Source: an uncultured Clostridia bacterium (lineage in GTDB: Bacteria; Bacillota; Clostridia; UBA1381). From it: a stretch of 54,772 nucleotides of DNA. This document shows, piece by piece, positions 3,233 through 52,389 of this stretch. Both the position numbers and the translations under genes were made by a program. The notes beneath the pieces are model-generated. The model was not told the DNA's origin, did no database searches, and saw nothing but the letters and a program-made list of their open reading frames with translations. The DNA lies in assembly GCA_944390495.1 (NCBI GenBank), contig CALXQE010000062.1, positions 1 through 54,772 on the forward strand, in the 5' to 3' direction. Within the stretch, counting starts at the first letter, position 1. Every line of letters starts with the position of its first letter.

Positions 3233-3250
3233 TGCACAAATAATAAATTT

Positions 3251-3286
3251 ATCCCTTGGGACATTATATCCCAGGGGATTTTTTTA
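3251..3286 (+). terminator. Rho-independent terminator of the rhamnogalacturonan lyase gene
   Basis: An 11-bp stem (3251-3261 with 3269-3279, one G-T pair) with a 7-base loop is followed by a run of seven T. It lies 18 bases after the stop codon. Confidence 0.85.
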
Positions 3287-3303
3287 AATTTTTCGGATTG
3301 GAT

Positions 3304-3333
3304 TTGACAAAAAGGTGAAAATAGTAGTATAAT
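3304..3333 (+). promoter_or_regulatory. Sigma-A promoter for parE and the following genes
   Basis: TTGACA at 3304-3309 and TATAAT at 3328-3333 are separated by 18 bases, a near-consensus vegetative promoter about 55 bases before the parE ribosome binding site. Confidence 0.75.
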
Positions 3334-3394
3334 TAGTAAGATATAATAGCGATTACTATAAGTTGATATAAAAAAATAGGAAAGGAAAGGTTCT

Positions 3395-5413
3395 ATGCCA
3401 AGGAAAAAACAGGAATACGGTAATGACAGTATAACAAGCCTTAAAGGTGCGGACAGAGTAAGAAAACGTCCGGCGGTTATTTTCGGCAGTGACGGGCTTG
3501 AGGGCTGTGAGCATTCATTTTTTGAGATATTGTCAAATTCGATAGATGAGGCAAGAGAAGGATACGGTAACTTAATTGAAGTTACACGTTTTATGGATAA
3601 ATCAATCGAGGTAAAGGACCATGGGCGAGGTGTACCCCTTGATTATAACGAGGGTGAAGGCAGATACAACTGGGAACTTGTGTACTGTGAACTTTATGCC
3701 GGCGGTAAGTATGATAATAATAAAGGCGGTATGTATGAGTACAGTTTGGGACTTAACGGTCTTGGTGCCTGTGCAACCCAGTACAGCAGTGAGTATATGG
3801 ACGTAAGTGTTGTAAGGGATAAAACACTTTATACACTTCATTTTGAAAAGGGTGAAAATATAGGCGGACTTACAAAGACCGATACAAGAAGTGTTAAGAC
3901 GGGTACTGTACAGCGTTGGAAGCCTGATACGGAAGTATTTACAGATATAAATATACCACTTGAGTTTTTCCAAGATGTTTTAAATAAACAGGCAATGGTA
4001 AATGCCGGACTCAAATTTGTTTTATATAATGAAACAGAAACCGGTATGGAAATGTTTGAGTATTATTACGAAAACGGTATTGTTGACTATGTAAAAGAAA
4101 CGGTTGGTGACGAAGGTTTTACGACCGTTGAAACATGGGAAATGGAAAGAACAGGCCGTGACAGGGAGGATAAAGAGGATTACAGAATGAAAATGCAGAT
4201 AGCGTTCTGTTTTTCAAATACTGTAAATATGCTTGAATACTACCATAACTCAAGTTACCTTGAACACGGCGGTTCACCTGACAGGGCTGTTAAGAATGCT
4301 TTTGTATATTCTATTGACAGATACTTAAAGCAAAATGACAAGTACAATAAAAATGATACAAAGATAACATTTAATGACGTTGCGGATTGTCTTGTGCTTG
4401 TTATAAACTCATTTTCAACACAGACAAGTTACGAAAACCAGACTAAAAAAGCTATAAATAATAAATTCATTCAGGAAGCAATGACTGAATTTTTGCGTGA
4501 AAAGCTTGAGGTTTATTTTATAGAAAATAAAACTGACGCAGAAAAGATTGCAAACCAAGTAATTGTAAATAAAAGAAGCCGTGAAAATGCAGAAAAGGCA
4601 AGAATTGATATAAAGAAAAAGCTTACCGGTACGATGGATATAACAAACAGAGTTGAGAAGTTTGTTGACTGTCGAAGTAAAGATGTGAGCATAAGAGAAC
4701 TTTATATAGTAGAGGGTGATTCGGCTTTAGGTTCGTGTAAACTTGCAAGGGACCCGATGTTTCAGGCTATTATGCCTATTCGAGGTAAAATATTAAACTG
4801 CCTTAAAGCTGATTACCCGAGAATTTTTAAAAGTGATATTATAACCGACCTTGTAAAGGTGTTAGGGTGCGGTGTTGAGATAAAGTCATCACATAATAAG
4901 AGTATTGAAAGTTTTAGTCTTGATAATTTAAGATGGGATAAAGTTATATTATGTACAGATGCCGACGTTGACGGTTACCAGATACGAACACTGCTTCTTA
5001 CAATGATTTACAGACTTATGCCGACACTTATTGAATCAGGTAAAGTTTATATAGCGGAGTCACCCCTTTATGAAATAGCTGTTTTAAAGACGAAACGTAA
5101 GGGTGAAACGCTGTTTGCATATACAGACGGTGAAAAAGAAGAAATTGTGCGGAAGCTTGAAGAGGAAGGACTAAGTCTTTCAAAGGATGACTATGAGATT
5201 AAGCGTTCAAAGGGTCTTGGTGAAAACGAACCGGATATGATGAGTTTAACTACAATGCACCCGGCGACAAGACGTCTTATACGTGTTACACCTGAAGATG
5301 CTGAGGGTACGGCAAGGATGTTTGATGTACTTTTAGGTGATAATATTCAGGATAGAAAGGACTTTATAGCAGATAACGGCGGACATTATATGGAAATGCT
5401 TGATTTATCATAA
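3395..5413 (+). CDS. parE: Type IIA DNA topoisomerase ATPase subunit (ParE/GyrB family, divergent clostridial type)
   Basis: This is the B subunit of an ATP-driven type IIA topoisomerase. The GHKL ATPase domain shows E44-x3-N48-x2-D51-E52 and D75-H-G-R-G79, followed by the YSLGLNGLGA lid loop near residue 116. The TOPRIM metal site is seen as VEGDSALG (E440) and TDADVDG (D522, D524, D526). At 672 residues it is close to ParE length. The first motif differs from textbook GyrB/ParE (LSNSIDEA), so it belongs to a divergent branch rather than the housekeeping gyrase. The start is fixed by a purine-rich GGAAAGGAAAGG at 3379-3390. parC follows after 17 bases, so the two subunits are co-transcribed and form an A2B2 enzyme. 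Housekeeping gyrAB is presumably elsewhere. Confidence 0.9.
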   Translation: MPRKKQEYGNDSITSLKGADRVRKRPAVIFGSDGLEGCEHSFFEILSNSIDEAREGYGNLIEVTRFMDKSIEVKDHGRGVPLDYNEGEGRYNWELVYCELYAGGKYDNNKGGMYEYSLGLNGLGACATQYSSEYMDVSVVRDKTLYTLHFEKGENIGGLTKTDTRSVKTGTVQRWKPDTEVFTDINIPLEFFQDVLNKQAMVNAGLKFVLYNETETGMEMFEYYYENGIVDYVKETVGDEGFTTVETWEMERTGRDREDKEDYRMKMQIAFCFSNTVNMLEYYHNSSYLEHGGSPDRAVKNAFVYSIDRYLKQNDKYNKNDTKITFNDVADCLVLVINSFSTQTSYENQTKKAINNKFIQEAMTEFLREKLEVYFIENKTDAEKIANQVIVNKRSRENAEKARIDIKKKLTGTMDITNRVEKFVDCRSKDVSIRELYIVEGDSALGSCKLARDPMFQAIMPIRGKILNCLKADYPRIFKSDIITDLVKVLGCGVEIKSSHNKSIESFSLDNLRWDKVILCTDADVDGYQIRTLLLTMIYRLMPTLIESGKVYIAESPLYEIAVLKTKRKGETLFAYTDGEKEEIVRKLEEEGLSLSKDDYEIKRSKGLGENEPDMMSLTTMHPATRRLIRVTPEDAEGTARMFDVLLGDNIQDRKDFIADNGGHYMEMLDLS

Positions 5414-5430
5414 AATACAGGAGATTTTTT

Positions 5431-7641
5431 ATGGCAAGGAAGAAGAAAGATAAAACGGAAGAAATTATATATGCTCCCATTGACGAGCAGCCGATTACTC
5501 AAACACTTGAGCAAAATTATATGCCCTATGCAATGAGTGTAATAGTATCAAGAGCTATTCCTGAAATAGACGGTCTAAAGCCGGCACACAGGAAACTACT
5601 CTATACGATGTATAAAATGGGATTATTAGGCGGTAAACTTACAAAATCAGCAAATGTTGTGGGACAGACAATGAAACTTAACCCACACGGTGACGCTGCA
5701 ATATATGAAACTATGGTACGTCTTACAAGGGGCAACGAAGCACTTTTGCACCCACTTGTAGAGTCAAAGGGTAATTTCGGTAAACAGTATTCAAGGGACA
5801 TGGCGTATGCTGCGTCAAGATATACAGAGGTAAGACTTGAACCTATATGTCAGGAATTGTTCGGTGATATTAACAAGAACACCGTTGAATTTGTGGACAG
5901 CTACGACGGCGGTATGAAAGAACCTACACTTTTACCTGTGGCGTTTCCTGCAATTTTGGTAAACCCGAATCAAGGTATTGCGGTAGGTATGGCAAGCAAT
6001 ATATGTTCATTTAATTTGCGTGAAGTATGCGACGCAACTATCGCTGTAATGAAAGATGAAAATGCTGATGTAATAAAGTATATGATAGCACCGGATTTTT
6101 CTATGGGTGCAAACCTTATTTACTCAGAAAATGAAATGAGGAAAATATATGAAACAGGCAGAGGCAGTTTTAAATTAAGGGCAAAATATAAATACGACAA
6201 GGAAAACAACTGTATAGAAATACTTGAGATACCGTATACCACAACGGTTGAAGCAATTATAGGAAAAATAATGGAGCTTGTAAAGGCAAACAAGCTTAAA
6301 GAAATTTCCGACGCACGTGATGAAACCGGTCTTCAAGGTTTTAGGATTGCACTTGACTTAAAGCGTGGAATTGACCCTGATTCACTTATGGCAAAGCTTT
6401 ATAAGCTAACGCCTTTGGAGGACAGCTTTAGCTGTAATTTTAACGTGCTTATTAAAGCACGTCCTATGGTCCTTGGAGTTAAGGACATTTTAAAGGAATG
6501 GATAGCCTTTAGAATGGAGTGCGTTAAAAACGGTATAAAATACGACATTGAAAAGAAAAGCGAAAAACTGCACCTTTTAACAGGTCTTAAAAAGATTTTG
6601 CTTGATATAGATAAGGCTGTTTCAATTATTCGCCATACTGAAAAAGAGGCGGACGTTGTACCGAATTTGATGGACGGATTTGATATAGATGAGGTTCAGG
6701 CAGAGTATATTGCAGAAATTAAACTTCGTAATCTTAATAAAGAGTATATCATAAACAGAACATCTGAAATTGAAAAACTTATTGAAGAACTTGAGGAACT
6801 TAACCGCATACTTTCAAGTGACGATGAGATAAAAAAGGTAATTGCAAATGAGCTTGAAAAAATTTCTAAAAAGTACGGTCAGGACAGAAAGACGGAGCTT
6901 ATAAGTGACGATGAAGTGGTTCAGTACAGCGAAACTGAAAATATTGACGACTATGCCCTTACAATTTTCTTTACAAGGGAAAACTATATAAAGAAAATAT
7001 CGGCAGTGTCACTTCGTTCAAGTTCAACTGAACATAAGCTGAAAGAGGACGACGAGATTTTACAGACAATCGAGGCTACAAATAAGTCCGAGCTTATATT
7101 CTTCTCAAATAAATGCGTTGCCTATAAGATGAAAACATACGACCTTGCAGACGCAAAGGTAAGTACGATAGGTGAGTATTTACCGGGACTTTTAGGACTT
7201 GATGAGGACGAGAGAATACTTTATACTGTTGTGACAACTGATTACAGCGGTAATATGCTCTTTACCTTTGAAAACGGTAAAATGGCAAAGGTTGAGCTTA
7301 AAAATTACGAAACAAAAACAAACCGTAAAAAACTTGTGGGAGCTTACGGAAACAAGTCACCTATATGCGATATAAGGCTTTTGCAAAAGGATATTGATGT
7401 AGTTATAATGTCTGATAATAACAGGATTTTATGTCTTAACACAGATAAAATACCGCTAAAGGCAACAAAGAGTACACAGGGTGTTCAGGCAATAACACTT
7501 CGCAAAAAAGATGCTAAAGTAGTTAAGGTTATGGAGGCTGAAAACTGCGGAATAGACGACTTTGAAAAATACAGAACAAAAAATATACCTGCCGCAGGCG
7601 GCATATTAAAAGGAGAGGACACACAGATAAGTTTGATATAG
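5431..7641 (+). CDS. parC: Type IIA DNA topoisomerase cleavage subunit (ParC/GyrA family, divergent)
   Basis: This is the DNA-cleaving partner of the preceding gene. The catalytic arginine-tyrosine pair is R130-Y131 within AASRYTEVRL. The quinolone-binding helix reads NPHGDAAIYE: the position of GyrA Ser83 is Ala89, and the acidic position four residues on is Glu93. The C-terminal part has degenerate beta-pinwheel blades (for example FFSNKCVAYKM and FENGKMAKVEL) but no GyrA box, so topoisomerase IV-like decatenation is more likely than supercoiling. At 736 residues it is slightly short for the family. The downstream citrate synthase begins 32 bases after the stop, suggesting one long transcript. 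Confidence 0.9.
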   Translation: MARKKKDKTEEIIYAPIDEQPITQTLEQNYMPYAMSVIVSRAIPEIDGLKPAHRKLLYTMYKMGLLGGKLTKSANVVGQTMKLNPHGDAAIYETMVRLTRGNEALLHPLVESKGNFGKQYSRDMAYAASRYTEVRLEPICQELFGDINKNTVEFVDSYDGGMKEPTLLPVAFPAILVNPNQGIAVGMASNICSFNLREVCDATIAVMKDENADVIKYMIAPDFSMGANLIYSENEMRKIYETGRGSFKLRAKYKYDKENNCIEILEIPYTTTVEAIIGKIMELVKANKLKEISDARDETGLQGFRIALDLKRGIDPDSLMAKLYKLTPLEDSFSCNFNVLIKARPMVLGVKDILKEWIAFRMECVKNGIKYDIEKKSEKLHLLTGLKKILLDIDKAVSIIRHTEKEADVVPNLMDGFDIDEVQAEYIAEIKLRNLNKEYIINRTSEIEKLIEELEELNRILSSDDEIKKVIANELEKISKKYGQDRKTELISDDEVVQYSETENIDDYALTIFFTRENYIKKISAVSLRSSSTEHKLKEDDEILQTIEATNKSELIFFSNKCVAYKMKTYDLADAKVSTIGEYLPGLLGLDEDERILYTVVTTDYSGNMLFTFENGKMAKVELKNYETKTNRKKLVGAYGNKSPICDIRLLQKDIDVVIMSDNNRILCLNTDKIPLKATKSTQGVQAITLRKKDAKVVKVMEAENCGIDDFEKYRTKNIPAAGGILKGEDTQISLI

Positions 7642-7673
7642 TCTGAATGGATTTCAGGCGGAAAGGAAGTAAT

Positions 7674-9038
7674 ATGTTGACAGAAAATGAAAAGAAAGCA
7701 TTGCAGGAGAGATTTCAAAACAGGGCAGCCGGATTATATCAGCCCCTTTCAAAGGAACTTTTTAAACAGTTTCATGTAAAAAGAGGTCTTAGAAACGACG
7801 ACGGTACAGGTGTAATGGCAGGACTTACATCTGTCGGTGCAGTACAGGGTTACTATATAGACGACGGAGAGAAAGTACCAATGGAGGGACATCTTCGTTA
7901 CAGAGGTTACGATATTACAGATATTGTGAAAAATTGTGAAGAAGAAAATCGTTTCGGGTTTGAAGAAGTTGCGTATCTTTTGCTTTTCGGAAATCTGCCT
8001 GACGCTGATACATTGGAAGATTTTTCACGTCTTATAGGTAACATGAGAGTTTTACCTGAAGGATTTGCGGAGGATATGATTTTAAAGGCACCGAGTAAAA
8101 ACATAATGAACAAAATAGCCAGAACAGTTTTGGCATCATATTCATACGATTCAAATCCTGACGAAATTTCAGTGGGAAATATACTTCGTCAGTCAATCGA
8201 GCTTATAGCAAGACTGCCTGTAATGGCGGCATACGGTTACCAGGCTAAAAGTCACTACCACGACGGAAACAGCCTGTATCTTCACGCACCGCAGCCGAGA
8301 TTGTCAACAGCTGAGAATCTTCTGTATATGCTAAGACCTGATAACAAGTATACACATGAAGAAGCAGAAATGCTTGACGTACTTTTGATGATACACGCCG
8401 AACACGGCGGCGGTAACAATTCCGCATTTACTACAAGGGTTGTTTCATCATCAGATACAGATACTTATTCTGCAATCGCTGCTGCAATAGGTTCTTTAAA
8501 AGGTCCTAAACACGGCGGTGCAAATGCAAAGGTTATGTCACAGATGGAGGACATAAAATCACACGTTAAAAACTGGGACGACAAAAAAGAAGTAAGCAAT
8601 TATATAGAAAAGATAATCAGAAAAGAAGCATTTGACGGAGCAGGACTTATATACGGAATGGGTCATGCGGTTTATACAATATCTGACCCGAGAGCAATAC
8701 TTCTAAAGGAGAGAGCAAAAAGACTTGCCGAGAAGAACCCTGAATTTAATAAGGAATTTAATTTGTATTGTTTGGTTGAAGAACTTACACCGGAAGTTTT
8801 TGCAAGGGTAAAACACAACGACAAGGTAATAAGTGCAAATGTAGATTTGTATTCAGGATTTGTATATAAAATGCTTGGAATACCTGAGGAAATGTATACA
8901 CCGCTTTTTGCTATTTCAAGAATTGTAGGCTGGTGTGCACACAGACTTGAAGAGGTTATAGGCTGCGGCAGAATTATAAGACCTGCATATAAGTCTGTAT
9001 TACATAGTAAAGACTATGTTAAAATAGATGAAAGATAA
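7674..9038 (+). CDS. gltA: Citrate synthase
   Basis: It condenses acetyl-CoA and oxaloacetate to citrate in the cytosol. The family signatures are HAEHGGGNNSAF (first catalytic His region), LKGPKHGGAN and GMGHAVYTISDPRA (second His and substrate arginine region), plus VDLYSGFVYKMLG near the C-terminus. I chose ATG 7674 because GGAAAGGAAG lies at 7660-7669; an in-frame ATG at 7647 has no good ribosome binding site. The length (454 residues) fits type I/II bacterial enzymes. Its place behind parC is unusual. With PEP carboxykinase and malic enzyme in the same window it probably feeds an incomplete TCA route toward 2-oxoglutarate and glutamate. Confidence 0.92.
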   Translation: MLTENEKKALQERFQNRAAGLYQPLSKELFKQFHVKRGLRNDDGTGVMAGLTSVGAVQGYYIDDGEKVPMEGHLRYRGYDITDIVKNCEEENRFGFEEVAYLLLFGNLPDADTLEDFSRLIGNMRVLPEGFAEDMILKAPSKNIMNKIARTVLASYSYDSNPDEISVGNILRQSIELIARLPVMAAYGYQAKSHYHDGNSLYLHAPQPRLSTAENLLYMLRPDNKYTHEEAEMLDVLLMIHAEHGGGNNSAFTTRVVSSSDTDTYSAIAAAIGSLKGPKHGGANAKVMSQMEDIKSHVKNWDDKKEVSNYIEKIIRKEAFDGAGLIYGMGHAVYTISDPRAILLKERAKRLAEKNPEFNKEFNLYCLVEELTPEVFARVKHNDKVISANVDLYSGFVYKMLGIPEEMYTPLFAISRIVGWCAHRLEEVIGCGRIIRPAYKSVLHSKDYVKIDER

Positions 9039-21762: not shown

Positions 21763-24354
21763 ATGGAAAGTATAAAATTTCATTGGCTTAAAAACAGAAG
21801 TAAAGGCGGTTATGTGACGTGGGGAGTACCATTTAAGCAGGGCGTTAAAACAGATGATGTATGTTTTATTCCCCGTGATGAAAAGGGAAACAATATAGCC
21901 TTTCAGGAAAAACCTATTGCATTTTATCCTGACGGAAGTACAAAGTGGAGCTCATATACAGCAAAGGTTGAGAGCGATAATATAACGCTGTATAATGACG
22001 GACACAGCGAAACTTTCGGCGGCAACTGCGTTACTGAAAATGACAGCGAAATAAGTGTAGATAACGGCTTATTTAACGCAGTATTCCCGAAAACAGGTAA
22101 AGTGCTTATGAAAACACCTTACGCTTTTGCAATGCTAAAATCAATAAAGGAAATACGCTCCTTTGACGGAGACTATGAAATAAGAAAATCAATTCCTTAC
22201 TACGGTGAAATTGATAAAATGACAATAGAGGAAAGCGGAAGTTTAAAGGTAACGGTAAAGGCAGAGGGTGAGCACAAAAGAAGTGACGGTGAATTTTTAA
22301 AGTTTATCGTAAGATTTACAATCCACTATAATGAACCGACAGTTGGTATCGTTCACACATTTTTATTTGACGGCGACGAAAACACTGATTTTATAAAGGG
22401 CGTTGGAATAGAGTTTTCACGCAGTATGGAAGGCGAGCTTTATAACAGAAGAATTAAAATTACAGGTGATACAGGTGTTATGCACGAGCAGATGCAGATA
22501 CTTAATTTATGGCGTCCGAGATTATCTCCTGAAATTGAGAAACGTCAAATGGCAGGTGAAAAGCTGTCACTTTCCGATATGGTTGATTTAAGAAACGGAA
22601 ACGCTGTAACGTGTGATGAAATTGACAATGTTACAAAGTGGGATTGTTACAGACTTGAGCAGCTAAGTGCAGACAGCTTTGAGGTTAAAAAACGTACTGC
22701 CCATGATGAATGTACATTTATAAAGGCAAATTGGGGCAGACGCTCAAAGGGTATGATGTATATAGGTGATGAAAATAACGGTATCGGTGTATGTATCCGT
22801 GATTTTTGGCAAAAGTACCCTACATCTTTATATGCAAAAGGTCTTTCGCAGGATGAGGCGGTTTTGACTGCTTGGATTGTTCCGCCTGATAGTGAAGCCT
22901 TTGATATGCGTCACTATGATACTGTTGCACACGACCAAACATATTATGAGGGATTTCCTGAAATCGGTTCAAGTGCCTACGGTATTGCAAACACAAATGA
23001 AATGACTCTGTTTTTGTTTGATTCAGTACCGACAGACGGCGAGCTTATGGAAAAAGCCGACAGCGTTCAAAAACCTGCCGTACTTGTGGCAGATGTGAAA
23101 TACTACCATGATATTAAAATATTCGGTGAATGGAGTCTGCCTGAAAGAGATACACCTCTTAAAACGTGGCTTGAAGATGAACTTGACAAGGCATTTGATT
23201 TTTACAAAAATGAAATTGAACAGCGTCACTGGTACGGACTTTGGGACTACGGCGATATAATGCACACATACGACGCTCAGCGTCACTGCTGGAAGTACGA
23301 TATGGGCGGTTACGCATGGCAAAATACCGAGCTTGTACCTACCCTTTGGCTTTGGTATGCCTTTATGCGTACAGGCAGAGAGGATATATTTACGGTAGCT
23401 GAGGCAATGAGCCGTCACAGTGCAGATGTTGATACATACCATTTCGGTGACTATAAGGGTATAGGAAGCCGTCATAATGTAGTACATTGGGGCGATTCAT
23501 GTAAAGAACCTCGTATTGCAATGGCAGGTCACCATAGACCGCTGTACTATTTAATGGGCGGTGACGTGAGAATAGGCGACGTTTTAGACGACGTCAAGGA
23601 CGGAGATTTTTCAACTCTTAATATTGACCCGCTCCGCTACTTCTACAAAAAAGAGGAAATGAAACTTCCTACCCACGCAAGAACAGGCCCTGACTGGTCA
23701 ACTTACTGCTCTAACTGGTACACAGCATGGGAAAGAAGAAACGATACACATTACCGTGACAAGATAATGACAGGTATAAACGACCTTAAAAAAGCACCTA
23801 TGTGTATGATTTCAGGCTCTAACTTTGAGTATGACCCTCATACGGGACACATGGGATATATCGGTGAAAGTGCGGCAGGAGGTTCACATTTGGCTGTATG
23901 TATGGGCGGCCCTGAAACATGGTTTGAGCTTGCAGAGCTTTTAGGCGACGATGAATTTAAAGATATGCTTATTCAGTACGGAAAGTTTTATTTCTTGCCC
24001 CTTGAGGAAAAGGTTCGCCTGTCTAACGGACTTATTACAGGCAACGGATTTGTATATCCGTATATGGCGTCATCGCTTTGTGCTTATGCCGCAAAGATGT
24101 CAAAGGACGAAAAATTAGCTTATCAGGTTTGGCAGGTGCTTATACATTCACTTGCAGGTAAAGATAAAAAGGATAATTTTGATAAGGAAGTCGTTAAAAA
24201 CTACTTTAACACAGAAAATCTTGATGAAATGTTCTGGATTTCAACTAACTTTACTGCCCAGTGGTGCTTAAATACAATAGTTGCCCTTGAACTTACAAAG
24301 GGTATGATGAAAGATAACAAAGAAGACTACGAATGGGAAGATTGGGTTAAATAA
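21763..24354 (+). CDS. PcRGLX/YetA-like protein, probable exo-rhamnogalacturonan lyase (PL26-related)
   Basis: This 863-residue cytosolic protein has no signal peptide. It matches the PcRGLX/YetA-like three-domain family: an N-terminal beta-rich domain (RSKGGYVTWGVPFKQG, AFYPDGSTKWSSY), a middle domain, and an alpha/alpha toroid with highly conserved segments GLWDYGDIMHTYD, MGGYAWQNTELVPT, GSRHNVVHWGDSCKEPRIA and GESAAGGSHLAV. PcRGLX is an exo-acting rhamnogalacturonan lyase and B. subtilis YetA lies in a rhamnogalacturonan cluster, so breakdown of imported rhamnogalacturonan oligosaccharides is likely. Activity is inferred from family only. The gene follows malic enzyme after GGAGAAAGGAAA and ends at a strong terminator. 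Confidence 0.8.
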   Translation: MESIKFHWLKNRSKGGYVTWGVPFKQGVKTDDVCFIPRDEKGNNIAFQEKPIAFYPDGSTKWSSYTAKVESDNITLYNDGHSETFGGNCVTENDSEISVDNGLFNAVFPKTGKVLMKTPYAFAMLKSIKEIRSFDGDYEIRKSIPYYGEIDKMTIEESGSLKVTVKAEGEHKRSDGEFLKFIVRFTIHYNEPTVGIVHTFLFDGDENTDFIKGVGIEFSRSMEGELYNRRIKITGDTGVMHEQMQILNLWRPRLSPEIEKRQMAGEKLSLSDMVDLRNGNAVTCDEIDNVTKWDCYRLEQLSADSFEVKKRTAHDECTFIKANWGRRSKGMMYIGDENNGIGVCIRDFWQKYPTSLYAKGLSQDEAVLTAWIVPPDSEAFDMRHYDTVAHDQTYYEGFPEIGSSAYGIANTNEMTLFLFDSVPTDGELMEKADSVQKPAVLVADVKYYHDIKIFGEWSLPERDTPLKTWLEDELDKAFDFYKNEIEQRHWYGLWDYGDIMHTYDAQRHCWKYDMGGYAWQNTELVPTLWLWYAFMRTGREDIFTVAEAMSRHSADVDTYHFGDYKGIGSRHNVVHWGDSCKEPRIAMAGHHRPLYYLMGGDVRIGDVLDDVKDGDFSTLNIDPLRYFYKKEEMKLPTHARTGPDWSTYCSNWYTAWERRNDTHYRDKIMTGINDLKKAPMCMISGSNFEYDPHTGHMGYIGESAAGGSHLAVCMGGPETWFELAELLGDDEFKDMLIQYGKFYFLPLEEKVRLSNGLITGNGFVYPYMASSLCAYAAKMSKDEKLAYQVWQVLIHSLAGKDKKDNFDKEVVKNYFNTENLDEMFWISTNFTAQWCLNTIVALELTKGMMKDNKEDYEWEDWVK

Positions 24355-43070: not shown

Positions 43071-43925
43071 TTACCTGTCGCCTGATGTGACATTACGTCT
43101 GTATTCACTTGGGGTACAATTCATAAACCTTAAAAACATTTTGCCGAAATAACTGTTATTATTAAATCCGCAGAGTGAAGAAATTTGCGAAATGGTTTTA
43201 TCGGTGTTTTTTAACATATACGCACTTTGCATAATTCTGTATCTGTTTAGATACACAAAGGGCGATACATCGGCAGTTTCACGGAAAATACGGCATAAAT
43301 GTTCTCTGCTGGTGTGTGCGTGCGTGGATAAATCCTCAAGGGTTATGTTATTCATATAATTTAGGTGTATGTAATTGATTATTTTTTTAAGTGTATCGGA
43401 CTTTACGTCCTTTTTGACTGCGTTCCTTTTTTCACCGTGGGCTATGCACATTGACATCATTCTTGTTATATTTCCCTTTACATAAAGCTCATAACCTTGA
43501 ATTTGGCTGTTAAAAATCTCGCTTGTTTCTATGGCGGTGCTTATTACTTCTTTTGGAAGTGCAGTGGGGATTACCAGTTCATTTCGTATAATAGGCATGA
43601 TAAGTTTTTTGTAAATGTTATCGTATTCCGGTACGATGAAGCTGGGCGAAAATACTATTGCGATAAATGAACACTGAATATTGTTATTAATAATAACAGA
43701 ATGAAGTGCTCCTGAGTTTATAAAAACACCCTGTGATTTTTCAAGATGAACAGCGGTGTTTTCGATTTGTACCTTTACACTGCCCTCTGTCAGTATAAAC
43801 AGCTCAAATTCCTTATGATAGTGAAGGGGAACAGGGACATTTTCCGATGTATTATATGTATATATTCCCACGGGGAAATCGGCTGTGCCGTGAATTACGT
43901 GTTCTTCTAAATACTTTTTGCCCAT
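43071..43925 (-). CDS. AraC family transcriptional regulator (cupin sensor)
   Basis: An N-terminal cupin (VPVPLHYHKEFELFILTEGS) would bind the sugar inducer. The C-terminal double helix-turn-helix has TLEDLSTHAHTSREHLCRIF and ISQISSLCGFNNNSYFGKMF followed by CTPSEYRR. The 284-residue start at 43925 follows AGGTGG; a TTG at 43964 would overlap its own promoter region. It is divergent from the GH31-xylB operon with about 120 bases between start codons, and a palindrome in that gap overlaps both promoters, so it very likely controls the operon. Confidence 0.9.
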   Translation of the reverse strand: MGKKYLEEHVIHGTADFPVGIYTYNTSENVPVPLHYHKEFELFILTEGSVKVQIENTAVHLEKSQGVFINSGALHSVIINNNIQCSFIAIVFSPSFIVPEYDNIYKKLIMPIIRNELVIPTALPKEVISTAIETSEIFNSQIQGYELYVKGNITRMMSMCIAHGEKRNAVKKDVKSDTLKKIINYIHLNYMNNITLEDLSTHAHTSREHLCRIFRETADVSPFVYLNRYRIMQSAYMLKNTDKTISQISSLCGFNNNSYFGKMFLRFMNCTPSEYRRNVTSGDR

Positions 43926-43970
43926 ATCCTGCCACCTCATCAATATTGTTATACAATCCGTCAAAATAAT

Positions 43971-44001: not shown

Positions 44002-44045
44002 TGTATCAAAGAGGTAAATTTATGTCAAGGGAACGGAGGTATTAT

Positions 44046-46016
44046 ATGTTTTTTGATGGCAGTGACGGACGTTTGGAGGCGTTTTGGCGAAATGAGAAAA
44101 TACTTATAGAAGCATGGGGAAAGAATGCACTTCGCATAAGGGTTACCCATAACGCTGACTTTACAGGCAATAACAATGCACTGGAGGAAACAAAGTCAAA
44201 GGGTGAAGTTGAAATAACCGAGGAAAAGGCACGGATAAGCAACGGAAAAATCAGCTGTGAAATCCATGAAAGCGGCTGGATTGAGTTTTTTAAGGACGGG
44301 AAATTGATTTTAAAAGAATACTCAAGGGATTCGTGGACGGCAAACGAGCACAGTCCGAGTATGAAATTTTCCGCCCGTGAGTTTAAGTCGGTAAGCGGAA
44401 GTGATTATCGTATTACAGCACGATTTGAATCACAAAAGGGCGAGAGAATATTCGGAATGGGACAGTACCAACAGGAAAATCTTGATTTAAAGGGCTGTGT
44501 ACTTGAGCTTGCCCAGCGTAATTCACAAATAAGCATACCCTTTTACATATCAAATAAAGGTTACGGCTTTTTGTGGAACAACGGCGGTATAGGTGAGGTA
44601 ATGTTCGGTATGAACTACACGCAGTGGCAAAGTAAGCTGTCCGAGGAACTTGACTATTGGATAACTTGTGACGACACACCTAAGAGTATCATAGAAAGCT
44701 ACACAGCCGTAACGGGACGAGCACCGAAGTTTCCCGAAAACGCACTTGGACTTTGGCAGTGTAAACTGCGTTATCGTACGCAGGAGGAAGTGCTTGGTGT
44801 AGCACGAGAGTATAAAAGGCGTGGAATACCCCTTGATGTTATAGTTATAGACTTTTTCCACTGGATAAGACAGGGTGACTGGAGTTTTGACCCAAAGTAT
44901 TGGCCTAATCCCCAAGAGATGATGGACGAGCTTAAAGAAATGGGTGTTAGGTGTATGGTTTCGATTTGGCCGACGGTTGACCGTAAAAGTGTAAACTTTC
45001 AGGAAATGTTTAACAAAGGTCTTGTTATAAGAACGGAACGAGGAAGCATTCAGTGCTTTGATTTTCAGGGCGATACCGTAATTTACGACGCATTAAATCC
45101 TAAAGCCCGTGAATTTATATGGGATAAGGTAAAGGAAAACTACTATAAATACGGAATTGATATGTTCTGGCTTGACGAGGCTGAACCTGAATATTCAGCC
45201 TATGATTTTGACAATTACCGCCACTTTACAGGCTCAGCGTTAAAGGTGGGCAATATGTACCCTAAGGCACACGCAAAGGCATTTTACGACGGTATGATAA
45301 AGGAAGGACAAAAGGACGTGGTAAATCTTTTAAGATGTGCATGGGTAGGAAGTCAAAAGTATGCCGCACTTGTATGGTCGGGTGATATTAAGTCAACGTT
45401 TACGGCACTTCGTGACCAGTTAAGTGCAGGACTTAACATAGGTTTGGCAGGTATTCCGTGGTGGGTATCGGATACGGGCGGATTTTTCGGCAGTGTATAC
45501 GATGAGCATTTTAACGAACTGCTTGTTCGCTGGTTCCAGTTTTCGACGTTTTGTCCCGTACTTCGTATGCACGGTGACAGAGGGCCGCACGATACACCCA
45601 CACTTTCAGACCTTGACTATGGCGGCGGTTTTTCCGAAACGGGCAGACCTAATGAGCTGTGGAGCTTTGGGGAAGATGTGTACGAAATTTTAAAGAAGTA
45701 TCTTGATATACGTCTTAGCATGAAGGACTACATAAAATCAGTTATGGACGAGTCGAGCAGTAAAGGTTATCCTGTTATACGCACGATGTTTTTTGAATTT
45801 CCCGAGGATGAAAAGTGCTGGGAAGTAGATGACCAGTATATGTTCGGAAGTAAGTACCTTGTTGCACCCGTGCTTTACCAAGGAGTAGATAAACGTAAGG
45901 TTTATTTGCCCGAGGGAAAATGGAAAAATATCCACACAGACGAAATTTTTGAGGGCGGTCAAAGTATTATATCGGACGCACCGATTGATATTATTCCCGT
46001 ATTTGAAAAAATGTAA
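44046..46016 (+). CDS. GH31 family glycoside hydrolase, probable alpha-xylosidase
   Basis: This 656-residue protein has no signal peptide, so it acts in the cytosol. After a beta-sandwich N-terminal domain (GQYQQENLDLKGCVLELAQR, FLWNNGGIGEVMFG) the TIM barrel shows GLWQCKLRYRTQEEVL, IDFFHWIRQGDWSFD, nucleophile D377 in MFWLDEAEPEY and acid/base D447 in VWSGDI. GH31 includes alpha-glucosidases and alpha-xylosidases; the following isomerase and xylulokinase favour alpha-xylosidase. Two starts are credible: ATG 44046 with GGAGGT at 44035-44040 (preferred) and ATG 44022 with GAGGT at 44011-44015, which would sit too near the mRNA 5' end. First gene of a four-gene operon. Confidence 0.87.
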   Translation: MFFDGSDGRLEAFWRNEKILIEAWGKNALRIRVTHNADFTGNNNALEETKSKGEVEITEEKARISNGKISCEIHESGWIEFFKDGKLILKEYSRDSWTANEHSPSMKFSAREFKSVSGSDYRITARFESQKGERIFGMGQYQQENLDLKGCVLELAQRNSQISIPFYISNKGYGFLWNNGGIGEVMFGMNYTQWQSKLSEELDYWITCDDTPKSIIESYTAVTGRAPKFPENALGLWQCKLRYRTQEEVLGVAREYKRRGIPLDVIVIDFFHWIRQGDWSFDPKYWPNPQEMMDELKEMGVRCMVSIWPTVDRKSVNFQEMFNKGLVIRTERGSIQCFDFQGDTVIYDALNPKAREFIWDKVKENYYKYGIDMFWLDEAEPEYSAYDFDNYRHFTGSALKVGNMYPKAHAKAFYDGMIKEGQKDVVNLLRCAWVGSQKYAALVWSGDIKSTFTALRDQLSAGLNIGLAGIPWWVSDTGGFFGSVYDEHFNELLVRWFQFSTFCPVLRMHGDRGPHDTPTLSDLDYGGGFSETGRPNELWSFGEDVYEILKKYLDIRLSMKDYIKSVMDESSSKGYPVIRTMFFEFPEDEKCWEVDDQYMFGSKYLVAPVLYQGVDKRKVYLPEGKWKNIHTDEIFEGGQSIISDAPIDIIPVFEKM

Positions 46017-46033
46017 TTTAGGAGGTGAAAATT

Positions 46034-47875
46034 ATGAAAGAATTTATATTTTTTGATGACGTATATAAAATGAATTGGGTAGAAGGTAATACAGAATGGG
46101 GAACTGTAAAGAAACCTAAAGAATTGGAAGTTACAATTACTTCAAAAAACGATGAAAATACAAGAGAAGAGGAGTATGTTTTTAAAAATACAAGTGATAA
46201 AGATGTCTTTACGTCTTTGAAGGATATATCTATATATGTTCCTTTTAACGATGACTATAAATCCTCTGATGTTTGTATTACAAATCGTTGTCATACCCAT
46301 ATATGGTGCGGCGGTGATATAACTTATGTTATGGCACTTAGAATGGGAGGTGATTCGCCGCATTTAGGTTTGGTACTTACTGAGGGCAGTATAGGCGGAT
46401 ATAGTGTTGAACGTGATTTTGAGAAAATGAGTAATGATAGAGGCGATTTTATTTTTCACCCGTCACCTGTAAATCTTGCACCAAGAGAAAGTTTTAAAAT
46501 TAAGTGGAAATTATTTCGGCATGAAGGGAAAGAAGATTTTTATGAAAAACTGAAAACGTATTGTAAAAGGTATATCGGTGTGAAAGCTGAAAATTATGTT
46601 GTGTTTGAAGATGAGAGGATTCATATTGAAATAGAACCTGCCTTTGATATTAAGGATATAAGTATAATGCGTGGAGATGATGAGGCAGAATTTTATGTTT
46701 CCGACAATAAAATAGTAGTAGATGAAAAGGCAAAAAGTTACGGAGAATATTCATATAAAATAAATATAAATAATGTTAAAACAAAATGCAGCGTATTGGT
46801 GTTACCGACTGTTGAAAAGCTTGCATATAAAAGATGTCGCTTCATAACCGAAAAACAGCAGTATCATAATGAAAATAGTGCTCTTGACGGTGCATATCTA
46901 ATATACGATAATGAAGAAAAACATATTTACTATAATTCTGTATATGACTATAATGCAGGTCGTGAAAGAATAGGTATGGGATTGCTGATAGCAAAATATT
47001 TGCAGTATGATAAAAATGAAGAATTTGAACAAAGCTTGAAAAAGTATATTTGTTTTGTGGAGAGGGAGCTTTTTAACGAGGAAACAGGCGAGGTATACAA
47101 TGATTATAAGAGAGATAATTCATATAAGCGTTTGTATAATTATCCGTGGATGAGTCTGTTTTATTTGGAATTATTTGATTTGTACGGTGAAGAAAAGTAC
47201 TTGACAAATGCTTATAAAATAATGAAATCTTTTTATGAACAGGGCGGAACGTATTTTTACGCAATTGAAATTCCGCTTTTAAGGATTTCAAAAACTTTAA
47301 TAAATAACGGAATGAATGATTATGCGGAAGAACTTAAAAATTATTTTATACATCATTGTGAATATATAATTAAAAACGGTTTAAAGTATCCTGCACACGA
47401 GGTAAATTATGAACAAAGTATAGCCGCTCCGGCTTGTAATATGCTGATACAGATGTATATGCTGACAAAGGAAAAAAAATATCTTGCCGGTGCTAAAGAA
47501 CAAATGAAAGGACTTGAATCTTTTAACGGCTTACAGCCTGATTATCATATGTATGAAGTAGCAGTACGTCATTGGGACGGATATTGGTTTGGAAAGAGAA
47601 AAATGTACGGCGATACATATCCGCATTATTGGAGTGCACTTACGGCTCGTGCATACAGAGATTTTGGTGTAATAACGGAAAATTCAGAATACGAAAAAAA
47701 ATCACATGCTTCACACAGAGGTGTATTAAGTCTTATAAATCCTGACGGAAGTGCGTCATGTGCTTATGTATATCCTGTTTCCGTAAACGGAGAAGATACA
47801 GGGTATTATGATGTGTATGCAAATGATCAGGATTGGGGATTGTATTTTATGTTTTGCAGTTTTATGGATAAATAA
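46034..47875 (+). CDS. Putative six-hairpin (alpha/alpha toroid) glycosidase-like protein, family not assigned
   Basis: This 613-residue protein has no signal peptide. The N-terminal half looks like a beta-sandwich (HTHIWCGGDITYVMALRMGG, FIFHPSPVNLAPRESFKI), followed by a helical domain from about residue 280 (RIGMGLLIAKYLQYD, NYPWMSLFYLELFDLYGEE, PAHEVNYEQSIAAPACNML, YPHYWSALTARAYRDFG) typical of six-hairpin glycosidases such as unsaturated glucuronyl or other exo-enzymes. I cannot assign a GH family or point to certain catalytic acids. ATG 46034 follows GGAGGTG. It lies 17 bases after GH31 and 21 before the isomerase gene, so it should act on the same oligosaccharide. Its base composition is slightly more AT-rich than its operon partners. 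Confidence 0.62.
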   Translation: MKEFIFFDDVYKMNWVEGNTEWGTVKKPKELEVTITSKNDENTREEEYVFKNTSDKDVFTSLKDISIYVPFNDDYKSSDVCITNRCHTHIWCGGDITYVMALRMGGDSPHLGLVLTEGSIGGYSVERDFEKMSNDRGDFIFHPSPVNLAPRESFKIKWKLFRHEGKEDFYEKLKTYCKRYIGVKAENYVVFEDERIHIEIEPAFDIKDISIMRGDDEAEFYVSDNKIVVDEKAKSYGEYSYKININNVKTKCSVLVLPTVEKLAYKRCRFITEKQQYHNENSALDGAYLIYDNEEKHIYYNSVYDYNAGRERIGMGLLIAKYLQYDKNEEFEQSLKKYICFVERELFNEETGEVYNDYKRDNSYKRLYNYPWMSLFYLELFDLYGEEKYLTNAYKIMKSFYEQGGTYFYAIEIPLLRISKTLINNGMNDYAEELKNYFIHHCEYIIKNGLKYPAHEVNYEQSIAAPACNMLIQMYMLTKEKKYLAGAKEQMKGLESFNGLQPDYHMYEVAVRHWDGYWFGKRKMYGDTYPHYWSALTARAYRDFGVITENSEYEKKSHASHRGVLSLINPDGSASCAYVYPVSVNGEDTGYYDVYANDQDWGLYFMFCSFMDK

Positions 47876-47896: not shown

Positions 47897-49375
47897 ATGA
47901 ACAACATTCCAAAGGTAAAAGTAGGTATTGTGGCTGTAAGCCGTGACTGTTTTCCCGAAAGTCTTTCGGTAAACAGGAGAAAAGCACTTGTTAAGGCATA
48001 TGCTGAAAAATATGCAAGTGATGATATTTACGAATGTCCTGTATGTATAGTGGAAAGTGAAATACAGATGAAAGAGGCACTTTCAGATATTAAGAACGCA
48101 GGCTGTAATGCACTTTGCGTATACCTCGGTAATTTCGGCCCTGAAATATCGGAAACAATGCTTGCACAGCAGTTTGACGGCCCTAAGATGTTTGTTGCGG
48201 CGGCGGAGGAAAATATAGGTGTGCTGTCCGACGACAGAGGTGACGCCTACTGCGGTATGCTTAACGCAAGCTACAACTTAAAATTAAGAAACGTAACAGC
48301 GTATATTCCCGAATACCCCGTAGGTACAGCGGAAGAATGTGCAGATATGATTCATGAGTTTTTACCTGTTGCAAGGGCTGTAATAGGTTTGTCTGATTTA
48401 AAGATTATTTCTTTCGGCCCAAGACCTCTTAATTTCCTTGCTTGTAATGCACCGATTTATCAGCTTTACAAGCTCGGCGTTGAAATAGAAGAAAATTCGG
48501 AGCTTGATTTATTTGAAAGCTTTAACGCACACGAAGGCGATAAGAGAATAGCAGACGTTGTGGCAGATATGGAAAAGGAACTTGGTGAGGGCAATAAAAA
48601 ACCTGAAATCCTTGAAAAACTTGCACAGTATGAACTTACCTTGCTTGACTGGATTGAAAATCACAAAGGTTCAAAGAAGTATGTGGCAATAGCAGGTAAG
48701 TGCTGGCCCGCATTTCAGACGCAGTTTGGTTTCGTGCCATGCTATGTAAACAGCCGATTAACAGGCAGAGGAATACCTGTTTCATGTGAAGTTGATATTT
48801 ACGGTGCGTTGTCGGAATACATAGGAACGTGTGTATCACAAGACGCAGTGACGCTTCTTGATATTAATAATTCAGTACCTTTCGATATGTTTAATGAAGA
48901 TATTAAAGGTAAGTTTGACTATACACATAGGGATACATTTATGGGCTTCCACTGCGGAAACACATGTTCATCAAAACTTGCCGCATGTTCTATGAAGTAT
49001 CAGAAAATTATGGCACGTTCACTTCCCGTTGAGGTTACAAACGGTACACTTGAAGGTGATATAGCACCCGGTGACATTACATTTTTCCGCTTGCAGTCAA
49101 CAGCCGACGCAAAACTTCGTGGATATATCGCAAACGGTGAGGTTTTACCTGTCCCGACACGTTCATTCGGTTCAATCGGTGTATTTGCTATACCTGAAAT
49201 GGGACGTTTTTACAGACATGTGCTTATTGAAAAGAATTTCCCTCATCACGGTGCGGTAGCATTCGGACATCATGCAAAAGCACTTTATGAAGTGTTTAAG
49301 TATGTGGGAGTAGACGATATAGGTTACAACCAACCTAAAAATGTAAGATATGCAACGGAAAATCCGTGGGGATAA
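47897..49375 (+). CDS. L-fucose/L-arabinose isomerase-fold sugar isomerase (candidate non-XylA xylose isomerase)
   Basis: This 492-residue protein belongs to the FucI/AraA-like superfamily: an N-terminal Rossmann-type domain (VKVGIVAVSRDCFPESL, CNALCVYLGNFGPE), a central domain with GKCWPAFQTQFGFVPC, and likely metal ligands Glu in VSCEVDIYGALSEY, Asp in VTLLDINN and His in FPHHGAVAFGHHAK. Family members interconvert aldoses and ketoses with Mn2+. The next gene, four bases on, is xylulokinase and the operon starts with a GH31, so D-xylose to D-xylulose is the likely reaction. L-arabinose and fucose are less likely because no matching kinase or epimerase is present. Substrate is inference. Confidence 0.78.
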   Translation: MNNIPKVKVGIVAVSRDCFPESLSVNRRKALVKAYAEKYASDDIYECPVCIVESEIQMKEALSDIKNAGCNALCVYLGNFGPEISETMLAQQFDGPKMFVAAAEENIGVLSDDRGDAYCGMLNASYNLKLRNVTAYIPEYPVGTAEECADMIHEFLPVARAVIGLSDLKIISFGPRPLNFLACNAPIYQLYKLGVEIEENSELDLFESFNAHEGDKRIADVVADMEKELGEGNKKPEILEKLAQYELTLLDWIENHKGSKKYVAIAGKCWPAFQTQFGFVPCYVNSRLTGRGIPVSCEVDIYGALSEYIGTCVSQDAVTLLDINNSVPFDMFNEDIKGKFDYTHRDTFMGFHCGNTCSSKLAACSMKYQKIMARSLPVEVTNGTLEGDIAPGDITFFRLQSTADAKLRGYIANGEVLPVPTRSFGSIGVFAIPEMGRFYRHVLIEKNFPHHGAVAFGHHAKALYEVFKYVGVDDIGYNQPKNVRYATENPWG

Positions 49376-49379
49376 GAAT

Positions 49380-50837
49380 ATGTATTATATAGGAATTGAT
49401 TTAGGAACGTCGGCAGTTAAAATGCTGATGGTTGATGAAAAGGGCGAATTTATAAACAGTGTATTAAAGGAATATCCGCTGTATTTTCCCAAAAACGGCT
49501 GGTCGGAGCAAAATCCAGAGGATTGGTGGAATGCAGTTTGCGAAGGTCTTAGGGAAATTACAAGTGACTTTGATAAAAACAAGATAGGCGGTATATCCTT
49601 CGGCGGTCAGATGCACGGTCTTGTTATGCTTGACAGTGACGATAACGTAATACGAAACGCAATACTTTGGAATGACGGCAGAAGTGATAAGCAGTGTAAA
49701 TACTTAAACGATGTAATAGGTAAAGATAAACTTACAGAGTACACCGCAAATATTGCCTTTGCAGGATTTACTGCACCTAAAATTTTGTGGGTTAAAGAAA
49801 ACGAGATTGAAAACTTTAAAAGAATAAGTAAAATAATGCTCCCCAAGGATTATATCGTATATAAATTGACGGGCGTACATTCGACGGACTATTCCGATGG
49901 GTCGGGAATGTTACTTTTAGATGTTAAAAATAAGTGCTGGTCAAAGGAAATGCTTGATATTTGCGGAATTGATGATAGCGTAATGCCGACGCTTTATGAG
50001 AGTAGTGACGTTGTGGGAACGCTTACGGATAAAGCGGCAAAGGAAACAGGTCTTAATAAAAATGTTAAAATTATTGCAGGAGCAGGTGACAATGCGGCGG
50101 CGGCAGTAGGTACGGGAACGGTGGGAAACGGCAGATGTACTATTTCTCTCGGTACATCGGGAACGGTATTTATTTCATCTGATGAGTTTTCACTTGATAA
50201 AAATAACACACTCCATTCATTTGCACACGCTGACGGAAAATATCACCTTATGGGCTGTATATTATCGGCGGCTTCCTGTAATAAGTGGTGGATTTCGGAT
50301 ATACTGGGAAGTGAAGATTATGATGAAAGTCAAAGGGATATAAAAAATCTCGGTGACAATAACGTGTTTTTTGCTCCGTATCTTATGGGTGAGCGTTCTC
50401 CACATAACAACCCTAATGTAAGAGGTGCTTTTTTGGGTATAAGCATGGATACCACAAGGAAAGATATGACTCAGGCTGTACTTGAAGGAGTTGCCTTTGC
50501 ACTTCGTGACAGTATAGAGGCGGCAGGAAAACTCGGAATTTCGGTTAAAAGTGCCGCTGTCTGCGGAGGCGGCGGAAAAAGTCCGCTGTGGTGCAAAATT
50601 ATAGCGAATGTACTTAATATGGAAATTTTTACTCTCCAAAAAGATGAAGGCCCGTCATTCGGCTCTGCTGTTTTGGCTATGGTCGGGTGCGGTGAATATG
50701 AAAACGTCAGTGAGGCGGCAAAAAAACTTACAGCGGTTAAAGACAGGTATATCCCCGAAAAGGAAATTGCAGAAAAATACGAAATAAAATATAACAAGTT
50801 TAAAAAGATTTATCCGAGCATTAAAGATTTATATTAA
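49380..50837 (+). CDS. xylB: Xylulokinase
   Basis: This FGGY-family kinase of 485 residues phosphorylates D-xylulose. It shows the phosphate-1 loop IGIDLGTSAVKMLMVD, the xylulokinase-specific GISFGGQMHGLV, catalytic Asp in IAGAGDNAAAAVG, and the adenosine motif VCGGGGKSPLWCKI. ATG 49380 lies four bases after the isomerase stop, behind GGGG; an in-frame ATG at 49350 inside the isomerase gene has no ribosome binding site. No terminator is visible after the stop. It ends the operon and delivers xylulose-5-phosphate to the pentose phosphate pathway. Confidence 0.93.
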   Translation: MYYIGIDLGTSAVKMLMVDEKGEFINSVLKEYPLYFPKNGWSEQNPEDWWNAVCEGLREITSDFDKNKIGGISFGGQMHGLVMLDSDDNVIRNAILWNDGRSDKQCKYLNDVIGKDKLTEYTANIAFAGFTAPKILWVKENEIENFKRISKIMLPKDYIVYKLTGVHSTDYSDGSGMLLLDVKNKCWSKEMLDICGIDDSVMPTLYESSDVVGTLTDKAAKETGLNKNVKIIAGAGDNAAAAVGTGTVGNGRCTISLGTSGTVFISSDEFSLDKNNTLHSFAHADGKYHLMGCILSAASCNKWWISDILGSEDYDESQRDIKNLGDNNVFFAPYLMGERSPHNNPNVRGAFLGISMDTTRKDMTQAVLEGVAFALRDSIEAAGKLGISVKSAAVCGGGGKSPLWCKIIANVLNMEIFTLQKDEGPSFGSAVLAMVGCGEYENVSEAAKKLTAVKDRYIPEKEIAEKYEIKYNKFKKIYPSIKDLY

Positions 50838-52354: not shown

Positions 52355-52389
52355 AAAAGAGCATAGGGCGTTTGCCTTATGCTCTTTGT
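52355..52389. terminator. Bidirectional terminator between purine permease and GH2 gene
   Basis: A 14-bp stem (52356-52369 with 52374-52387, containing G-T pairs) flanked by an A run and T residues. Confidence 0.87.

Follow-up and report, generated by a model that had tools for sequence, protein, structure and literature searches.

A clostridial PL27 family protein, likely an L-rhamnose-α-1,4-D-glucuronate lyase, encoded within a probable xylose module

The gene at 46034–47875 of the analyzed window, a 54,772-nucleotide stretch of DNA from an uncultured Clostridia bacterium, encodes a 613 aa protein that belongs to the PL27 lyase family, an assignment that sequence and fold establish as far as they can. 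By precedent with the characterised members of the family, the protein is likely to be an exo-acting L-rhamnose-α-1,4-D-glucuronate lyase. A previously unplaced sugar enzyme thus acquires a family and a predicted reaction, the removal of rhamnose caps from plant arabinogalactan side chains. What is new to PL27 is this particular sequence; the enzyme type is already known, and only its operon setting is unusual.

The lyase gene lies within a group of same-strand genes preceded by a divergent regulator, with the following layout:

43071–43964, minus strand: AraC-type regulator, divergent, preceding the group; its sensor domain is cupin-like
44022–46016, plus strand: GH31, probable α-xylosidase (closest solved structure MeXyl31, 5zn6)
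46034–47875, plus strand: PL27 lyase gene, 613 aa, ATG start
47897–49375, plus strand: PF02952 (FucI-family) isomerase, a probable D-xylose isomerase of the XylA-II type
49380–50837, plus strand: xylulokinase XylB (TIGR01312, 582.9 bits against a cut-off of 380.25)

The four plus-strand genes are closely spaced, with 17 bases between the end of GH31 (46016) and the lyase, and 21 bases between the lyase and the isomerase ATG (47897). An AGGAGG precedes the ATG at 46034; the mechanical alternative start is a GTG at 46025, which defines a 616-codon open frame (46025–47875, plus strand). The lyase frame contains no inner stop, and it is a genuine gene and not a chance frame, since near full-length relatives (56–60% identity) occur in four other genomes of the window's genus and family, and 337 of the 387 matches in a pattern scan of GTDB genomes encode a relative. 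Inspection by eye revealed no N-terminal signal on the 613 aa protein, which is predicted to be probably cytosolic. Downstream of xylB, a terminator-like hairpin (52356–52387, a consensus match only) follows an NCS2 permease gene that may or may not be part of the operon transcript, and promoter-like sites hardly exceed those in shuffled sequence (39 found, 31.7 expected).

A phmmer search against PDB sequences identified a sole meaningful relative, BACCELL_00875 (5no8/5nok), the PL27 L-rhamnose-α-1,4-D-glucuronate lyase of Bacteroides cellulosilyticus, with an E-value of 9.2e-133 over residues 35–606; the only other chain listed was an antibody (E 0.15). The two proteins are identical at 229 of 566 aligned positions (40%), and a profile built from 40 family members returned BACCELL_00875 at E 2e-183, the next PDB chain scoring E 0.44. 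Structural comparison led to the same family. The AlphaFold2 model (mean pLDDT 92.5, pTM 0.92) superposed on 5no8 over 606 of 613 residues with a VIA Z of 44.7, an rmsd of 1.7 and 38% identity, with the next other structure among the matches listed reaching Z 23.6 and aligning 316 residues with 8% identity, and Foldseek matched the BACCELL_00875 structure at E 4.2e-57 with a TM of 0.94 on the query. Homology to a characterised member and fold are joined by a shared set of charged and polar residues, described below, as grounds for PL27 membership. Neither Pfam nor NCBIfam, both searched to E 1, gave the protein a lyase name, NCBIfam returning no match for it, and annotation resting on these collections may therefore leave such genes unnamed.

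The sequence-only reading of this DNA had described a β-sandwich followed by an α/α toroid, and the AlphaFold2 model bears out this layout, which is also that of BACCELL_00875. The parts of the protein are as follows:

46124–46522, plus strand: N-terminal β-sandwich, residues ~31–163 (AlphaFold2 model), holding a CxxxxCHTHIWC motif
46274–46309, plus strand: C-x4-C-x2-H-x2-C motif, residues 81–92 (50-row alignment)
46574–46804, plus strand: second small strand-rich part, residues ~181–257 (AlphaFold2 model)
46811–47866, plus strand: C-terminal α/α toroid, residues ~260–611, with conserved YPxxEVNYEQSI and RHWDGYWFGK...GDTxPHYWS blocks

Conservation was assessed on an alignment of 50 rows comprising the window protein, relatives from 39 of the best 80 GTDB loci and 10 loci from the G genomes; about 47 rows are distinct, as at least three pairs (L017/L044, L018/L046 and L019/L048) look like the same contig, agreeing in length and in match position. 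Defining conserved columns as those with the window residue in at least 94% of rows yielded 104 columns, 79 of which carry the same residue in BACCELL_00875, while 21 differ (C86, C92, R310, H441 and Y517 among them, all replaced in the Bacteroides protein) and four fall before the compared BACCELL stretch. Among conserved H, Y, R, K, D or E columns, 31 of 39 are common to both proteins, and one of the remaining eight lies outside the compared stretch. The 25 of 104 conserved columns not shared with BACCELL_00875 indicate that the window subfamily differs somewhat from the one that has been characterised. The cysteine-histidine motif illustrates this divergence: C81, C86, H89 and C92 occur in 48, 49, 50 and 50 of the 50 rows, respectively, whereas BACCELL_00875 keeps the cysteine and the histidine at the first and third positions and has alanine and lysine at the second and fourth. 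In this subfamily the motif may bind a metal or play a structural part. Measured against an 85% consensus drawn from the 49 relatives in the alignment, the window protein shows only three departures (F141, A464 and V511), all conservative, and its sequence therefore holds no hint of changed specificity.

According to PMC8377490, PL27 enzymes act on gum arabic, where they carry out β-elimination at glucuronate with release of the rhamnose cap, and metal-independent syn-eliminating lyases often use a single Tyr or His as both base and acid. By analogy with the characterised PL27 enzymes and with metal-independent lyases in general, a pocket of the window protein would bind the non-reducing end of an arabinogalactan-type side chain where a glucuronate carries a rhamnose cap, and a His or Tyr would take the glucuronate H5 and protonate O4. 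Elimination would then cleave the C4–O4 bond, L-rhamnose would depart, and the glycan would be left capped by 4,5-unsaturated glucuronate. The lyase may work on oligosaccharides that have been taken up into the cytosol, alongside the GH31 α-xylosidase. The same paper describes FoRham1 (PL42) of Fusarium oxysporum, which, provided that the PL27 activity is as predicted, would share its target bond and chemistry with the window protein, but which is an unrelated seven-bladed β-propeller with 3–5% identity to PL27 enzymes; it is thus an analogue and not a family member.

The window genome seems to hold the means to use both products, judging from its gene content. Rhamnose could be processed by RhaA, then by a RhaB-like kinase and finally by an aldolase: RhaA is present, the RhaB-like kinase scores 522 bits, just below the 527.95 cut-off, and there are Aldolase_II proteins, a broad family also found in 12 of 14 control genomes. 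A hydrolase of the GH88/GH105 type, encoded at another place in the genome, could take off the 4,5-unsaturated glucuronate cap; two GH88-family matches in the genome exceed the cut-off, a strong one at 247 bits and a weak one at 33 bits. Against the rhamnose reading stands the operon itself, which is composed of xylose genes and lacks rhamnose genes, the rhamnose and GH88 genes being located on other contigs.

The genes flanking the lyase had been read from sequence as a xyloside operon with a GH31 α-xylosidase, and both points hold up well. The closest solved structure to the GH31 protein is the α-xylosidase MeXyl31 (5zn6; E 3.8e-232, next best 1e-91), and the presence of the isomerase and XylB next to it makes a xylose module very likely; xylose released by GH31 would be channelled through these two enzymes of the same operon. 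The isomerase matches PF02952 (E 3.3e-34), returned no PDB match, and falls far short of sulfoquinovose isomerase (73 bits against a 700 cut-off), which was rejected as a candidate. It is present in 14 of 61 close genomes, the window's own and 13 others at 82–93% identity, and adjoins XylB both here and at 8 of the 13 loci read from the other genomes. Classical XylA scores over its cut-off in 7 of the 61 genomes, many of which are incomplete, and in none of the 14 that bear the isomerase; chance alone would predict an overlap of about 1.6 genomes, so that mutual exclusion of the two isomerases is suggestive, not strong. A FucI-family xylose isomerase of clostridia, XylA-II, is reported in PMC2873477 to cluster with xylB in two species, its role being confirmed by gene disruption and complementation. 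Since the window isomerase likewise belongs to the FucI family, lies next to xylB and occurs in genomes without a classical XylA, it is probably a XylA-II-type xylose isomerase. The FucI-family isomerase is more conserved than the adjoining GH31 and PL27 genes, and in one relative locus (L165) it adjoins an NCS2 permease (58.6%), the type of gene that follows xylB in the window.

Twelve of the 61 close genomes gave a match at E ≤ 0.001, which was weak in two cases; among 398 genomes drawn evenly from the phylum, only the window's own and one other matched. An earlier single-protein scan of GTDB contigs found no relative; the 337 described above were found with an alignment query, and the best 80 of their loci were studied. 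Two patterns run against viral contigs produced 13 matches, none of them a PL27 relative, and thus no phage link. The occurrence of PL27 relatives in genomes titled Clostridia, Lachnospiraceae, Bacillus-type and Treponema suggests that the same rhamnose-decapping step takes place in other users of plant glycans. A 131 aa PL27 relative (query residues 3–117) in a genome of the same family (L025, 8954–9349), encoded beside GH2 and AraC genes, is a probable remnant.

The neighborhoods of other PL27 genes were compared with the gene order in the window. Among the best 80 GTDB loci, a GH31 relative occurs in one (L101, 25% identity, opposite strand), a XylB relative in one (L102, 25%, ~6.5 kb away) and a FucI relative in none; the 11 PL27 loci of the G genomes contain no GH31 relative, and the 13 isomerase loci of other genomes, several on short contigs, contain neither GH31 nor PL27 relatives. 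The window arrangement therefore looks lineage-specific, and operon position is weak evidence on substrate. Without a conserved GH31 beside PL27 genes elsewhere, the idea, drawn from that position, that the substrate of the protein also contains α-xylose is weakly supported. Two G-genome loci do carry related sugar genes, an FGGY kinase (31.5%) in L022 and a FucI-like isomerase (25%) in L024. In the latter (1350–8177, minus strand), PL27 is followed on the same strand by the FucI-like isomerase, a PfkB kinase and a fructose-bisphosphate-type class II aldolase, a set that could make up a sugar pathway coupled to PL27.

For the wider neighborhoods, four loci in which a simple caller gave no PL27 ORF (L092, L096, L111 and L114) were excluded, and Pfam was run on 138 of 175 operon neighbors (161 of the 175 being 150–1100 aa long). 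The tallies are rough, drawn from the 25 commonest of 62 and of 44 families without a control set, and some neighbor sets are near-identical (e.g., L103 and L108). Among the families listed for these 138 neighbors there were 21 ABC-transport permeases, 7 GH28 and 6 GH42 β-galactosidases, together with a few GH88, GH43, GH123 and lacto-N-biose-phosphorylase-like proteins; non-sugar neighbors (EF-Tu/EF-G, SIR2, hydrogenase) were also present. The sugar genes in these neighborhoods fit the uptake and degradation of oligosaccharides from arabinogalactan or pectin, which agrees with the action of PL27 enzymes on gum arabic.

The protein had originally been taken for a glycosidase of a family that could not be placed, a view that gives way to PL27, which fits nearly the whole chain in both sequence and fold. 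The Pfam search yielded only GH88 (PF07470; E 0.0042), at 16.6 bits against a cut-off of 26.6; GH88/GH105 identity was rejected on this score, which, with the lack of an NCBIfam match, fits the difficulty of placing the protein from sequence. This weak hit and the toroid nonetheless lend something to a reading as a six-hairpin hydrolase, whether an unsaturated uronyl hydrolase akin to GH88/GH105 or a toroid glycosidase of some other kind. The toroid alone resembles epimerases, GH76 and GH88 enzymes at Z 18.7–23.6 (18.7–19.6 for GH88/GH105, with 7–11% identity), but PL27 accounts for nearly the whole chain at about twice the Z and 38% identity, making a hydrolase very improbable. GH88/GH105 enzymes have a six-hairpin toroid in common with the window protein and could act on the product of a PL27 lyase. 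Of the suggestion that the protein removes a uronic acid or galactose, the involvement of a uronic acid survives, whereas hydrolytic removal does not, PL27 enzymes acting by β-elimination according to PMC8377490. It is likewise highly unlikely that this PL27 protein has lost its activity or serves in binding only: the frame is intact, it agrees with BACCELL_00875 at 31 of the 39 strongly conserved charged or polar columns, and the residues of its relatives are retained at all but three well-conserved columns.

A further reading is a PL27-fold lyase that eliminates at a 4-substituted glucuronate with a leaving sugar other than rhamnose (e.g., xylosyl, fucosyl or arabinosyl), matched to the xylose operon. 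A probable α-xylosidase, a xylose-isomerase-like enzyme and a xylulokinase as operon partners argue for it, as do the FGGY kinase and the FucI-like isomerase near two other PL27 genes and the Bacteroides origin of all three characterised PL27 enzymes named in PMC8377490. Yet the three conservative changes amount to no specificity drift with respect to relatives whose contexts are varied and nearly always devoid of GH31, and we regard a different leaving sugar as unlikely. A rather unlikely extension is that the clostridial PL27 is tuned to, or co-regulated for, a glycan bearing both α-xylose and 4-capped glucuronate, cut in the cytosol by a GH31–PL27 pair that passes xylose directly to a XylA-II-type isomerase and XylB; if so, either a plant gum or side chain of arabinogalactan that has yet to be described would be implied, or a leaving sugar new to PL27. 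The rhamnose-glucuronate lyase activity remains the reading that we prefer.

Elsewhere in the window, two further genes are related to rhamnogalacturonan lyases. A PcRGLX-like protein (21763–24354, plus strand; PF21346; 5xq3, E 2.4e-126), which we take to be a member of PL26, is a relative of exo-rhamnogalacturonan lyase, and a gene that starts near the contig end and is probably cut (491–3232, plus strand) encodes the C-terminal part of a family 11 rhamnogalacturonan lyase (PF21348) together with bacterial Ig-like domains. The presence of these relatives fits a bacterium that uses plant-wall sugars.
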